From IMG/VR virus record IMGVR_UViG_3300048591_000174, positions 1 to 22,119 of that record: a DNA stretch of 22,119 nucleotides; one strand, 5' to 3'. Origin of the DNA: a virus. Of this stretch, positions 2,659 to 6,488 are shown one piece after another (position 1 is the first letter of the stretch; each line of letters begins with the position of its first letter). A program made the translations under genes and the position numbers. The notes beneath the pieces were generated by a model, which was given only the letters and a program-made list of their open reading frames with translations, had not been told where the DNA came from and did not search any database.

Positions 2659-2992
2659 CGGTCGCATCCTTGCGCCAGTGCTTGCGGACATCCGGCGCGG
2701 CCGTATCGACTCGCGCGAAGTCGCAGTAATCGCGGTCGGCGGTTTCGTTGCCGAGCGCGGCCCACTTCGCGGCCTCGGCCTCTGGTTCATTGATGGTCGA
2801 TTTGTGGTTACTCCAGCCGCGATCCTTGCGAATCCGGCCGAGCAGCAGTTCCTCGTACCGCTTGCGCAGCGCCCACCAGTTCGGCGTACCGTTCGCCGGA
2901 TAGGGCGGCTTGATGGATTCCAGCGAATCGAGGCGGGCGTAGTTCTCGGTCGCGAACTTCGCGCACTCGCGCAGATCGGGATACCTAGCCAC
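2645..2992 (-). CDS. Hypothetical protein next to the replication gene
   Basis: The 115-residue protein begins MARYPDLRECAKFATENYAR, with PPYPANGTPNWWALRKRYEELLLGRI around residues 29-54. GTG at 2992 is preceded by a good GGGAGG ribosome site 7 nt upstream. It overlaps the last 8 nt of the replication gene, so the two are almost certainly co-translated. The helical, charged sequence and position immediately downstream of an O-like gene would suit a helicase-loader or replication accessory, but no family motif confirms this. Confidence 0.65.
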   Translation of the reverse strand: MARYPDLRECAKFATENYARLDSLESIKPPYPANGTPNWWALRKRYEELLLGRIRKDRGWSNHKSTINEPEAEAAKWAALGNETADRDYCDFARVDTAAPDVRKHWRKDATDALE

Positions 2993-3731
2993 TGATCTGC
3001 CTCCCGTTGGCGTCTATGCGGATTTGCGGCAACATGGCGCGCGATTGAGCTTTGGTCGGGTAGCGGTCGCACGAGCGGCGGACCCATGTTCGCCAGGTCG
3101 CGTCCCAATCGAGCTTGCGGGCCTTTGCGCCCGCCGCCGCTTGCCAGTAGTCCGTGAACGACTCCGCGAGCTTCGCGGTATCGACGTTCGGCAGTTCCTT
3201 CTCGGCGTAGGCGATCAGGTCGGGGGACGGCTGCCAGCCTTCGGGGATCCGGGTAGCGAGCTTTGCTTTCTGTTTCGAGGGCGGCGGCGAGGGAGCGTGA
3301 GCGACCTCTGACTCTTCTCCGGAGGAGACAGTCAGGAGTCCGGAGTCAGGAGTCAGGAGTCCGGAGTCAGGAGTCAGACGGGAAAGCACCATGCTCGCAC
3401 TGTGCTTGTCCGGTGCAGGTATTGTGCTGGCCGCTTCCTTGCAGTGTGGATTCTGGTGCTTCAGGAAGTTTTCGACCTGAATATAACGCACGCCTGCCGA
3501 CTCGTATCGCGTGATAAATCCAGTGTCGCACAGCCATTTCAGCGCACTTTCTGTGCCTTTCATCGAGCGGCACGGATTCACGTTGATATGGATTTTAGCC
3601 GGCCGATCCTCGAGCCGCCCGAGCCGGTCGGCCATGCACCATAGCCCCTGAAAAATGATTGTATGCAAAGGGTCGGCCGCCGCCAGCAGTTCATTCCTGA
3701 AGATTCCAGGCTTGATGCTACGAGCGCGCAT
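2985..3731 (-). CDS. Phage replication initiation protein (O/DnaT-like)
   Basis: A 248-residue protein beginning MRARSIKPGIFRNELLAAAD. The N-terminal domain (about 1-110) has the winged-helix pattern of phage O-type initiators: LHTIIFQGLWCMADRLGRLEDRP, then LKWLCDTGFITRYE and YIQVENFLKHQNPHCKEA. A linker with tandem TPDSGLL repeats (about 119-135) follows. A C-terminal DnaT-like segment reads FTDYWQAAAGAKARKLDWDATWRTWVRR. By family, such proteins bind the origin and load host helicase. ATG at 3731 has AAGG 9 nt upstream; ATG at 3737 is an alternative. It overlaps the end of the HNH gene. Looser codon use and lower GC than the late genes are visible. Confidence 0.8.
   Translation of the reverse strand: MRARSIKPGIFRNELLAAADPLHTIIFQGLWCMADRLGRLEDRPAKIHINVNPCRSMKGTESALKWLCDTGFITRYESAGVRYIQVENFLKHQNPHCKEAASTIPAPDKHSASMVLSRLTPDSGLLTPDSGLLTVSSGEESEVAHAPSPPPSKQKAKLATRIPEGWQPSPDLIAYAEKELPNVDTAKLAESFTDYWQAAAGAKARKLDWDATWRTWVRRSCDRYPTKAQSRAMLPQIRIDANGRQISG
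3331..3377. repeat. Tandem heptamer repeat inside the replication gene
   Basis: Six consecutive 7-nt units of GTCAGGA or GTCCGGA, arranged as two perfect 21-bp copies (3331-3351, 3352-3372), followed by a partial GTCAG. On the coding strand each 21-bp copy gives seven residues (TPDSGLL) in the interdomain linker. Lambdoid phages carry their origin iterons inside the O gene linker, so this could be an origin element. It could also be a slippage-prone simple repeat. Confidence 0.9.
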
Positions 3732-4257
3732 GCCCATCACCCTTGATCGTTCGCCAGCAGATCCCGCAGAAATACTTGGTTCGTTCATTCGGTGTACGCC
3801 ATCTGGTTGCCTTTTCGGCCGCGTCTAAGACCGTTGGTAACGGCAGCTTCGATAGAAACATCCGCACCGAAGAGCGGAAGTTATCAGTGAAATGATGGTT
3901 TGTTTCGCGTAGCAAAATCGCTTCGACTTTATCGATGCTGCGCTCGGTCTTTCGCCGCTCAGATGCCACCAGTCGCTCGAATAATCGAACCTGCTCCCGC
4001 TTTTCCTGCATGAGTTCCAGGCGGCTTTCTACCGACTCTGGCAATTCAGTCAGTGGACGCGAACCCTTCCCGCGGTTGCAGTCCATACACGCGGTCGTGA
4101 GGTTCAACAGGTCGTCCGGCCCGCCTTCCGCGAGCGGGATGATGTGGTCGACCTCTAGGATGACTGCCGGCGGAGTTTTTCCGCAGTATGAACACGCGAA
4201 ACCGTCCCGCTTGAATACCTCGAAGCGGGTTTTCTTTCCTGTCGATTTCCTAGCCAT
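3718..4257 (-). CDS. HNH endonuclease with C-terminal helical domain
   Basis: The 179-residue protein begins MARKSTGKKTRFEVFKRDGF. It has a complete HNH/McrA-type module: CSYC (22-25), LEVDHIIPLAEGG with catalytic Asp37-His38, LLNLTTACMDCNRGKG with Asn52 and the second CxxC (57-60). Two CxxC pairs bind structural zinc. A long charged helix follows (ESRLELMQEKREQVRLFERL), then a C-terminal helical region (YFCGICWRTIKGDG). GGAGG lies just upstream of ATG 4257, which fixes the start; an upstream in-frame ATG at 4272 would lie inside a predicted stem. It lies between a Cro-like gene and the replication gene. A role in early DNA metabolism or as a free-standing homing nuclease is possible. Confidence 0.85.
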   Translation of the reverse strand: MARKSTGKKTRFEVFKRDGFACSYCGKTPPAVILEVDHIIPLAEGGPDDLLNLTTACMDCNRGKGSRPLTELPESVESRLELMQEKREQVRLFERLVASERRKTERSIDKVEAILLRETNHHFTDNFRSSVRMFLSKLPLPTVLDAAEKATRWRTPNERTKYFCGICWRTIKGDGHARS

Positions 4258-4265
4258 TGGGCCTC

Positions 4266-4335
4266 CACTCAAGAAGAGGATCGGACCCGCTGGGGGCTTG
4301 AGTGTGCGGGTTGCGAACCAGCACCCCCCAGCGGG
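4266..4335 (-). promoter_or_regulatory. Pseudoknot-capable leader directly before the HNH gene
   Basis: On the leftward transcript two perfect stems interleave. Stem 1 pairs 4335-4325 with 4296-4286 (11 bp, CCCGCTGGGGG with its complement). Stem 2 pairs 4304-4297 with 4273-4266 (8 bp, CACTCAAG with CTTGAGTG). The order is A-B-A'-B', an H-type pseudoknot with loops of 20, 0 and 12 nt, so the two stems could stack end to end. The last base of stem 2 touches the GAGG Shine-Dalgarno (4265-4262) of the HNH gene. Control of HNH translation is inference; the pairing is seen directly. Confidence 0.55.
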
Positions 4336-4342
4336 CCGACGT

Positions 4343-4549
4343 TCCGTTCACCGGGTTTTCCGGTGCTTTCACTATGCTACACTCATGCTCCGCGACCTGC
4401 TACGCCCAATATGCGCCAATGGCAGAACGCAATCGCAGGGGCGGCCGGTTAGCGCACCGAGCCGCCCCCGCCCCCTCACAAATTCCCCCGCCGCACGTCC
4501 ACCGTGCGGAGACTCCGGCACAACCGGGCCTGTGGACGGGGGAGGTGCG
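4343..4549. other. Gene-free, hairpin-rich stretch between the Cro-like and HNH genes
   Basis: No convincing coding frame lies here. Three further perfect hairpins occur: CACCGG/CCGGTG with a 5-nt loop (4349-4365), GGGGCGGC/GCCGCCCC with a 15-nt loop (4438-4468), and CCGCAC/GTGCGG with a 7-nt loop (4491-4509). None is followed by a T-run in the leftward direction, so I do not call intrinsic terminators. Together with the pseudoknot, most of the roughly 290-nt untranslated stretch can fold. Confidence 0.5.
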
Positions 4550-4756
4550 TCACGCGCTCGCCTTCGCTTCAGGCAGCACGTAATTCGGCAGCGGCACGTC
4601 GGGCTTGAGCTTGCCGGCCGACAGGCGCTCGAAGTGGTATTGCCAGTGCAGCGGCACATCCTCGCCCCACTGGTAGACGGCCTGCTTGGAAATCCCGAGC
4701 AGACTAGCGATCTTTGTTGCGCCGCCGAAATATGCGATAGCTTCACTGGATTTCAT
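4550..4756 (-). CDS. Cro-like / YdaS-type transcriptional regulator
   Basis: The 68-residue protein begins MKSSEAIAYFGGATKIASLL and contains a Cro-type helix-turn-helix: GGATKIASLLGISKQAVYQWGEDVP (residues 11-35), then LHWQYHFERLSAGKL. The family comprises small dimeric repressors at phage early promoters. It is the first gene of the leftward operon that leads to replication and packaging. The start at 4756 lies exactly 7 nt after the -10 box of a strong promoter, so the mRNA is predicted to be leaderless. No divergent CI-type repressor is present; the opposite promoter drives unrelated genes. Confidence 0.85.
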   Translation of the reverse strand: MKSSEAIAYFGGATKIASLLGISKQAVYQWGEDVPLHWQYHFERLSAGKLKPDVPLPNYVLPEAKASA

Positions 4757-4791
4757 GGGCGCAATATAGACCCGCGTCACGGGCTGGTCAA
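4757..4791 (-). promoter_or_regulatory. Leftward sigma70-type promoter for the Cro-like operon
   Basis: On the minus strand: -35 TTGACC (4791-4786), 17-bp spacer, -10 TATATT (4768-4763). The predicted start of transcription, 7 nt on, is the A of the ATG at 4756. The spacer contains the inverted repeat CCCG-N5-CGGG. Confidence 0.8.
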
Positions 4792-4802
4792 TATTTATTT
4801 TT

Positions 4803-4839
4803 CAACGCCTATTGACTCGGTATTTGGCAAGGCGTATTG
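4803..4839. promoter_or_regulatory. Candidate operator pair in the rightward promoter
   Basis: Two related 12-mers in the same orientation, CAACGCCTATTG (4803-4814) and CAAGGCGTATTG (4828-4839), match at 10 of 12 positions and start 25 bp apart. Both have CAA...TTG dyad ends. The first overlaps the -35 box and the second nearly coincides with the -10 box of the rightward promoter, as expected for repressor sites. That the Cro-like protein binds them is inference. Confidence 0.5.
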
Positions 4840-4846
4840 TCTACTC
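4812..4846 (+). promoter_or_regulatory. Rightward sigma70-type promoter for the early operon
   Basis: -35 TTGACT (4812-4817), 17-bp spacer, -10 TATTGT (4835-4840). The predicted start of transcription, 7 nt on, is 4847, the A of an ATG. It faces directly away from the leftward promoter, with 20 bp between the two -35 boxes. Confidence 0.8.
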
Positions 4847-4879
4847 ATGCCGGATGACCCGGCCGGGAGCAAAAGATGA
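4847..4879 (+). CDS. Ten-codon leaderless leader peptide
   Basis: ATG at the predicted 5' end of the early transcript opens a 10-residue frame, MPDDPAGSKR. Its TGA overlaps the ATG of the next gene as ATGA (4876-4879), the same coupling used throughout the operon. The sequence also holds the GGGAG ribosome site of the next gene. It could couple or regulate translation of the first early gene. There is no protein-level evidence. Confidence 0.4.
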   Translation: MPDDPAGSKR

Positions 4880-5175
4880 GCCTCGCAGGCAAGCAGAACA
4901 CCAGCCAGTACCACCGCATTCAGGCGAGCGTCAGCCGCCAGGCTGCGGTCTGCTGCGGATCGGCCGAGAAGGAACTGCGCCAGCGCCACCTCGATGCGGC
5001 GAAGCGTCACGAGGCGCAGGCCCGCCACCTCGCGCGGGTTGAGGCGCTGCTCGAGGCGGCCGACGCCGAGGCCGCCAGCTTCGCGCACATGTACGGCCTG
5101 ACCGACCCGGTCGCGATCGCGGCATTGAAGTCGTCGTACCTCGCCGGCCGCGCTGCCGAACTCAGGAGCCACTGA
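4876..5175 (+). CDS. Hypothetical early protein
   Basis: The 99-residue protein starts MSLAGKQNTSQYHRIQASVS. It is strongly helical and basic, with a likely coiled coil around residues 35-70 (RHLDAAKRHEAQARHLARVE). It ends in a helix after HMYGLTDPVAIAALKSSYLA. GGGAG precedes the ATG by about 6 nt. It is the first full-length gene of the early operon. No family is recognised. Confidence 0.65.
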   Translation: MSLAGKQNTSQYHRIQASVSRQAAVCCGSAEKELRQRHLDAAKRHEAQARHLARVEALLEAADAEAASFAHMYGLTDPVAIAALKSSYLAGRAAELRSH

Positions 5176-5808: not shown

Positions 5809-6488
5809 AGTTCGAAATCAAATCCCGCTGGTCCGGCGCCGTGCTGTTCTCGGCCGAAACGGACTCGCTGAAGTTGGCTGTGGAACTGGCGGTCAAGTCG
5901 CGCGCCTACCTCGCGGGCGCCAACCTCGCAGGCGCCGACCTCGCGGGCGCCAACCTCGCGGGCGCCAACCTCGCGGGCGCCGACCTCGCGGGCGCCGACC
6001 TCGCGGGCGCCTACCTCGCGCGCGCCAACCTCACGCGCGCCAACCTCACGGACGCCAACCTCGCGGACGCCAACCTCGCGCGCGCCAACCTCACGGACGC
6101 CAACCTCGCGGGCGCCAACCTCGCGGGCGCCAACCTCGCGGGCGCCGACCTCGCGGGCGCCGACCTCGCGGGCGCCTACCTCGCGCGCGCCTACCTCGCG
6201 CGCGCCTACCTCGCGCGCGATAACGGCCAGAAACTCACGCTGATCGGCGACAGGCCGGTATTTGTCATCGGCCCCATCGGCTCGCGTTGCGCGTACCTGA
6301 CGACGTTCCTGACGGACGCTGGCGTCTACGTTCGCGCAGGGTGTTTCTGGAACACGCTCGACGCATTCAAGGCGGCCGTGGCCGAGACGCACGGCGACAA
6401 CAATCACGGGCGTGAGTACCGCGCTGCGATTGCGCTGATTGAAGCGCACGCGGAGTTGTGGACACCGGCAAAGGAGAAAGCGGCATGA
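5805..6488 (+). CDS. Pentapeptide-repeat protein
   Basis: A 227-residue protein from GTG 5805 (GTGA overlap; GGGAGG upstream). Residues 1-33 form an N-terminal cap (KFEIKSRWSGAVLFSAETDS). Residues 34-138 are 21 uninterrupted pentapeptides of the A(N/D/Y)L(A/T)(G/R/D) type, expected to fold as a right-handed quadrilateral beta-helix of about five coils. The C-terminal domain (LTLIGDRPVFVIGPIGSRCA, then CFWNTLDAFKAAVAETHGDN) is shared by other phage pentapeptide proteins. Some pentapeptide proteins mimic DNA and inhibit gyrase, but this one has mostly Ala rather than Phe at the central position. No specific target is claimed. The near-perfect DNA repeats suggest recent expansion. Confidence 0.88.
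   Translation: MKFEIKSRWSGAVLFSAETDSLKLAVELAVKSRAYLAGANLAGADLAGANLAGANLAGADLAGADLAGAYLARANLTRANLTDANLADANLARANLTDANLAGANLAGANLAGADLAGADLAGAYLARAYLARAYLARDNGQKLTLIGDRPVFVIGPIGSRCAYLTTFLTDAGVYVRAGCFWNTLDAFKAAVAETHGDNNHGREYRAAIALIEAHAELWTPAKEKAA
5904..6218. repeat. 15-bp tandem repeat array (21 units)
   Basis: Twenty-one 15-bp units close to GCCAACCTCGCGGGC encode the pentapeptides. Units vary at a few fixed positions (AAC/GAC/TAC in the second codon; GGC/CGC/GAC in the last). Larger blocks recur: the GAN-GAN-GAD-GAD-GAY order appears twice, pointing to block duplication. Confidence 0.95.

Follow-up and report, generated by a model that had tools for sequence, protein, structure and literature searches.

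The genes for the T4-type homing endonucleases I-TevI, I-TevII, I-TevIII, segB and Aeh1 mobE possess leaders which sequester the ribosome binding site (PMC2988022), and the T4 gene 32 operator is a pseudoknot located 5' of the Shine-Dalgarno sequence of a phage DNA-replication gene, with a sequence that diverges between phages (PMC535899). The leaders of the plasmid replication genes of IncI-alpha and IncL/M (repZ, repA) are reported to contain a pseudoknot that switches translation of the initiator, as exemplified by ColIb-P9 repZ (studies cited in PMC10724649). In the case of P4, the CI RNA pairs with seqA and seqC, which leads to premature termination (PMC4825925). Control of phage replication initiators is thought to be exerted mainly by promoters, repressors and antitermination. 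In type III toxin-antitoxin systems (ToxIN), a pseudoknot RNA, sometimes with a terminator, is followed by a nuclease gene of approximately 175 aa. The IncI-alpha and IncL/M rep pseudoknots activate translation in conjunction with a leader peptide and an antisense RNA.

The leader described here precedes, on the minus strand, an HNH endonuclease gene (3718..4257; Pfam HNH, E 6e-15; phrog_14314) in a 22,119-nt stretch of viral DNA (the window; positions 1 to 22,119 of IMG/VR record IMGVR_UViG_3300048591_000174), for which no DNA similarity to known phages was found. An earlier note on this DNA had described two helices of 11 and 8 bp, interleaved in A-B-A'-B' order with loops of 20, 0 and 12 nt (L1, L2 and L3) up against GAGG, a description which is exact on the minus strand. 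The 5' strand of helix A (CCCGCUGGGGG, 4325..4335) pairs over 11 bp with A' (CCCCCAGCGGG, 4286..4296, read as 4296-4286), while the 5' strand of helix B (CACUCAAG, 4297..4304), after which A' starts directly, pairs over 8 bp with B' (CUUGAGUG, 4266..4273), the final G of which is the first G of the Shine-Dalgarno sequence GGAGG (4262..4266) of the HNH gene. Both helices are entirely Watson-Crick without mismatch and B' runs into GGAGG, in agreement with the view of the note that a pseudoknot at the ribosome site is geometrically feasible. After B', the minus strand continues with GAGG (4265-4262), CCCA and the AUG at 4257, placing B' 8 nt from the start codon.

The earlier note had not included a hairpin in loop 1, a nested hairpin hiding the Shine-Dalgarno sequence and a replication initiation gene that overlaps the HNH gene. 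Loop 1 of the window leader is a hairpin (GUGC-U-GGUU-CGC-AACC-C-GCAC, 4304..4324) instead of an open loop; its final C is common to helix B, of which 7 nt are free in the nested fold. The anti-Shine-Dalgarno CCUC (4276..4279) has GAGG (4265-4262) as its partner, with B' as the loop of the resulting small hairpin, and CCGAU (4280..4284) can optionally extend helix A outward by pairing with GUCGG (4340-4336), in competition with loop 3 of the pseudoknot.

The replication initiation protein gene (2985..3731; phrog_16167, phrog_1408) has a 14-nt overlap with the end of the HNH gene. The upstream gene encodes a P22 Cro-like regulator (4550..4780; PF14549, E 2.6e-20), before which a sigma-70-like promoter, a consensus match only (TTGACC-17-TATATT, 4763..4791), is the probable source of the leader transcript. 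Two divergent promoter-like sites flank the cro start, at 4763-4791 on the minus strand and 4812-4840 on the plus strand, with 0.2 expected from shuffles; no sigma-70-like site was found at 4260-4400 on the minus strand by a scan that is blind to phage-specific promoters. The window HNH protein, with 179 aa (3718-4257), is too short to accommodate a RuvC domain; the best solved-structure matches of the HNH family profile are the HNH domains of IscB and Cas9. Its predicted structure comprises a low-confidence HNH half and gave no informative fold match, and look-ups among defence systems and solved structures retrieved generic HNH similarity only. Elsewhere in the window, a short tandem repeat of the GGAGTCAGGAGTCC type (3326-3376) within the replication initiator gene encodes LTPDSGLLTPDSGLLT, and a plus-strand open reading frame (5890-6220) contains a pentapeptide-repeat-like run (ANLAGADLAG...).

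The nested fold of the window leader, in which helix A is real beyond doubt, has a z-score of -3.9, none of 200 shuffles being as good. In shuffles of the final 110 nt, the interleaved helix pair was matched 0/1000 times, and in those of the whole cro-HNH gap 1/300 times; a second score gives p about 0.007, and assessment of the window as a group member p about 0.007-0.01. With helix A given, helix B is reached in 12 of 5000 shuffles by length (p = 0.002), while by energy with a wider search p = 0.03; with such values, helix B taken alone is suggestive and cannot be claimed from the window sequence by itself. The predicted nested minimum free energy is -47.9 kcal/mol, and the Shine-Dalgarno sequence is hidden already without helix B, as it is paired inside a stable fold, its unpaired probability across the predicted ensemble of nested folds being 0.01-0.11. 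Setting B and B' aside for pairing with each other leaves it hidden except for its first G, which belongs to B'. The pseudoknot state is predicted at -41.2 kcal/mol plus -13.9 kcal/mol from stacking of helix B versus -47.9 kcal/mol for the nested fold, such that the two states would be comparable after the pseudoknot penalty.

Eight scans of IMG/VR, one genome scan and phage records provided a collection of several hundred HNH or initiator loci; a close homologue of the window was not among them. Exact search of IMG/VR for the A/A' arms retrieved a single contig with an unrelated gene context; this look-alike (L082:1010-1110), which displays a second hairpin GCCTC-AATTTTGAG-GAGGC with a loop partly complementary to the first, lies antisense to a structural gene and was set aside as a possible coincidence. 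HNH genes are rare in the bacterial genomes of one family (3/301). Most of the inspected relatives with structured leaders carry, 3' of the HNH gene and usually overlapping it, an initiator-like gene (about 220-300 aa), and in the cultured phages Louie and D65 the gene after HNH is likewise annotated as a replication initiation gene. As the initiator overlaps or follows HNH, the leader would govern both genes. Initiator loci occur both with and without HNH, and in the cultured relatives with initiator genes there is mostly no gap before the initiator.

For the family test, 150-nt HNH leaders were taken without selection on structure and scored against dinucleotide shuffles. An A-B-A'-B' arrangement at p<=0.01 was present in 27 of 123 unique leaders of the HNH family, which has more than 550 members. 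Restricted to leaders with 80 nt or more of intergenic sequence, the count was 21/63 for HNH leaders versus 5/260 for intergenic leaders of other genes from the same loci (Fisher p=2e-12); other control leaders from these loci scored 6/200. When the main hairpin was kept fixed and the partner segments were shuffled, a partner at p<=0.025 was retained in 10/29 HNH versus 1/29 control leaders, thus the excess is more than terminator hairpins. The median nested z-score was -2.70 for HNH leaders versus -0.18 for controls. These data support that HNH-family leaders recurrently share the A-B-A'-B' topology, while their sequences are unrelated across the family; the leader pseudoknot group is defined by topology and not by one ancestral alignment. 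The window belongs to this group with a significant A-B-A'-B' arrangement, a 3' strand at the ribosome site and an HNH gene downstream. A held-out HNH set, in which several leaders abut an upstream gene, gave a weaker result (1/19 at p<=0.01 and 5/19 at p<=0.05), and among initiator-only leaders the interleaved fold was significant in 5/71 and not in the remaining 66, hence such a fold is not detectable in most members. In L049, L151, L287 and L104, too few for statistics, the 7-nt loops of two hairpins are perfectly complementary to each other, and the second hairpin is that of a terminator or of the Shine-Dalgarno sequence; strict 7-nt apical kissing loops (L049 and L287, with L104 and L151 recognized by eye) are not enriched and were dismissed as a general feature.

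The earlier note had recognized no named RNA class, in line with an Rfam search without credible match up to E = 10. Among the Rfam 15 covariance models, no relevant family was found in the window or in 35 related loci, the only match being int-alpA in L142. This RNA (RF02996; L142:172-239; 46 bits versus a gathering threshold of 35.8) is located directly 5' of a same-family HNH gene and is one known phage RNA at the leader position of this HNH family. With only the topology kept, such leaders would be invisible to sequence-based RNA searches.

Covariation in homologous leaders, which the note had put forward as a check, is seen as compensatory changes in three sub-groups of relatives, none of them close to the window, so that support for the window pseudoknot is at the family level. 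Among initiator-only loci, where the initiators of L380/L381 are 86% identical to those of L382-L387, comparison of L380 with L382 shows changes on both sides in 7 of 11 compared pairs of helix A and 4 of 10 of helix B with pairing kept. L178 and L245 differ by two both-side changes in helix A and by three (1+2) in helix B. Between L021 and L075, the leaders of which are 83% identical, ACGGAG is replaced by CAGGAT and its partner CTTCCGT by GTCCTG in helix A, an exchange recognized by visual inspection of the alignment.

Of the single mismatches inside helices, 14 are G.U and 3 are A.C, a U-run follows B' in 14/35 leaders while an A-run precedes A in one, and the sense strand of HNH leaders folds more stably than the antisense strand (p = 8e-5). 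The excess of G.U over A.C, the U-tracts and the fold energy point to a leader element that acts as sense RNA. In 30/30 matches, the distance from the end of the 3' strand of the final helix to the start codon is 0-37 nt. B' overlaps or abuts the ribosome site in the window, L104, L094, L087 and L059, and a U-tract follows B' or the surrounding hairpin in L129, L149, L151, L027 and L295, with an intrinsic terminator in L129, L149 and L295. Of 16 hand-picked leaders, 14 have an A-rich loop 1 (p = 3e-4), as do many H-type pseudoknots. Where loop 3 is very short, as in some relatives, the two helices may alternate and not co-exist.

The reading favoured here, with a probability of roughly 0.55, is that of a cis-acting pseudoknot leader on the early transcript promoter-cro-[leader]-HNH-replication initiator which locks the Shine-Dalgarno sequence, with a terminator variant in sister phages. 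During RNA synthesis, helix A and the inner hairpin would fold first; the single-stranded segment ACUCAAG of the hairpin would subsequently pair with CUUGAGU in the loop of the small hairpin hiding the Shine-Dalgarno sequence, and the resulting H-type or kissing pseudoknot would lock this sequence and keep HNH weakly expressed until the fold is opened. The overlapping initiator gene might also be held low by translational coupling. For sister phages, where this topology finishes with an intrinsic terminator, equivalent control may be exerted at the level of transcription. Candidate triggers for opening are the HNH or initiator protein, an antitermination state, translation further upstream or a trans-acting RNA. 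As an initiator gene usually follows HNH, the element most likely attenuates the HNH-replication operon, and an attenuating leader with locking of the Shine-Dalgarno sequence or termination as output is the simplest reading.

That the leader comprises nested hairpins only, with stem A and its inner hairpin plus the CCUC/GAGG hairpin hiding the Shine-Dalgarno sequence and the B complementarity being coincidental or a weak kissing contact, is possible, though rather unlikely. Such an ordinary ribosome-site-hiding leader would be similar to those of the T4 homing endonucleases, which provide a precedent (PMC2988022); the fold of -47.9 kcal/mol already hides the site, and helix B alone has p = 0.002-0.03. 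Against this, interleaved partners are enriched with the main hairpin fixed (10/29 versus 1/29), and the partner helices covary in three sub-groups. Control by an antisense or processed RNA, in which a loop segment acting in trans or an antisense competitor sets initiator dosage, shares its type of target, a replication operon leader, with P4 CI and ColIb-P9 repZ. A partial third copy (GCAUGAGUGU) does lie upstream of A in the window, and in L059 GUGGUAG is flanked by a CUACCAC on either side, but the window copy is not significant (p = 0.08-0.22) and upstream direct copies of B' are not general among leaders, such that P4-like triple copies with flanking seqA/seqC-like segments were discarded. 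With no promoter-like site, hence no antisense promoter, found on the plus strand within the leader, this kind of control is improbable.

A function as DNA, for example as an operator, a replication origin hairpin or the end of a mobile element, would accommodate the long perfect inverted repeats adjoining replication initiator and nuclease genes, but is very improbable given the preference for G.U over A.C, U-tracts confined to the sense side, higher stability of the sense than the antisense strand and a position tied to the start codon. The earlier note had compared the fold with translational operators and with small riboswitches or ribozymes; the former likeness stands with a fold at the ribosome site, but the latter is unsupported, as the family shows no common conserved core. 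Pseudoknotting would also fit a small ribozyme or a riboswitch for a ligand, and L178, L245 and L262 show the strand order P1-P2-P3-P1'-P4-P2', which is presumably that of HDV-like ribozymes. As this likeness is in topology only, the candidate was rejected; with helices and loops replaced freely and an Rfam match absent, a catalytic or ligand-sensing RNA is highly improbable.

Beyond the cis-acting pseudoknot leader favoured for the window, many unrelated phages carry similar folds of different sequence at the same place, and it is therefore tentatively proposed, with the odds somewhat against it, that widespread and fast-evolving pseudoknot leaders, which keep architecture but not sequence, dose phage replication initiators by locking of the Shine-Dalgarno sequence or termination, as a probably widespread, unnamed replication-gene switch. 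A recurring pseudoknot before initiators would introduce control at the RNA level into the replication decision, and architecture-based scans would be shown to find regulatory RNAs missed by covariance libraries.

With respect to the described systems, the P4 leader similarly involves RNA pairing within a phage replication operon leader, unlike here with a CI RNA that is trans-acting and processed (PMC4825925). ToxIN shares a pseudoknot RNA before a nuclease gene, but the nuclease here is of the HNH type beside a replication initiator, and no tandem repeat array of the type III toxin-antitoxin kind was found in a repeat search of 3900-5000. The gene 32 operator is alike in a pseudoknot 5' of the Shine-Dalgarno sequence with sequences divergent between phages; its pseudoknot is a nucleation site of approximately 28 nt before a less structured Shine-Dalgarno region, whereas the fold here reaches the Shine-Dalgarno sequence, no binding protein is known for the window leader, UUAAA/UAAA repeats are not found in 4345-4255 and the downstream gene encodes HNH and not a single-stranded DNA-binding protein. 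As in T4-type homing endonucleases, where the nuclease is HNH or GIY-YIG, the Shine-Dalgarno sequence of a nuclease gene would be locked by a stable RNA fold (PMC2988022); those leaders are presented as secondary structures close to a late promoter, in contrast to the interleaved second helix, the conserved replication-initiator partner gene and the terminator variant in sister phages observed here. Like the plasmid rep leaders, the window leader has a pseudoknot as proposed switch before a replication initiator, although no leader peptide or antisense RNA has been identified for it. By analogy, the leader may work like the leaders of T4 homing endonucleases, the operator of gene 32 and the plasmid rep pseudoknots, each of which also has a defining feature not seen here, and, if the wider proposal is true, would represent a phage counterpart of plasmid copy-number pseudoknots.
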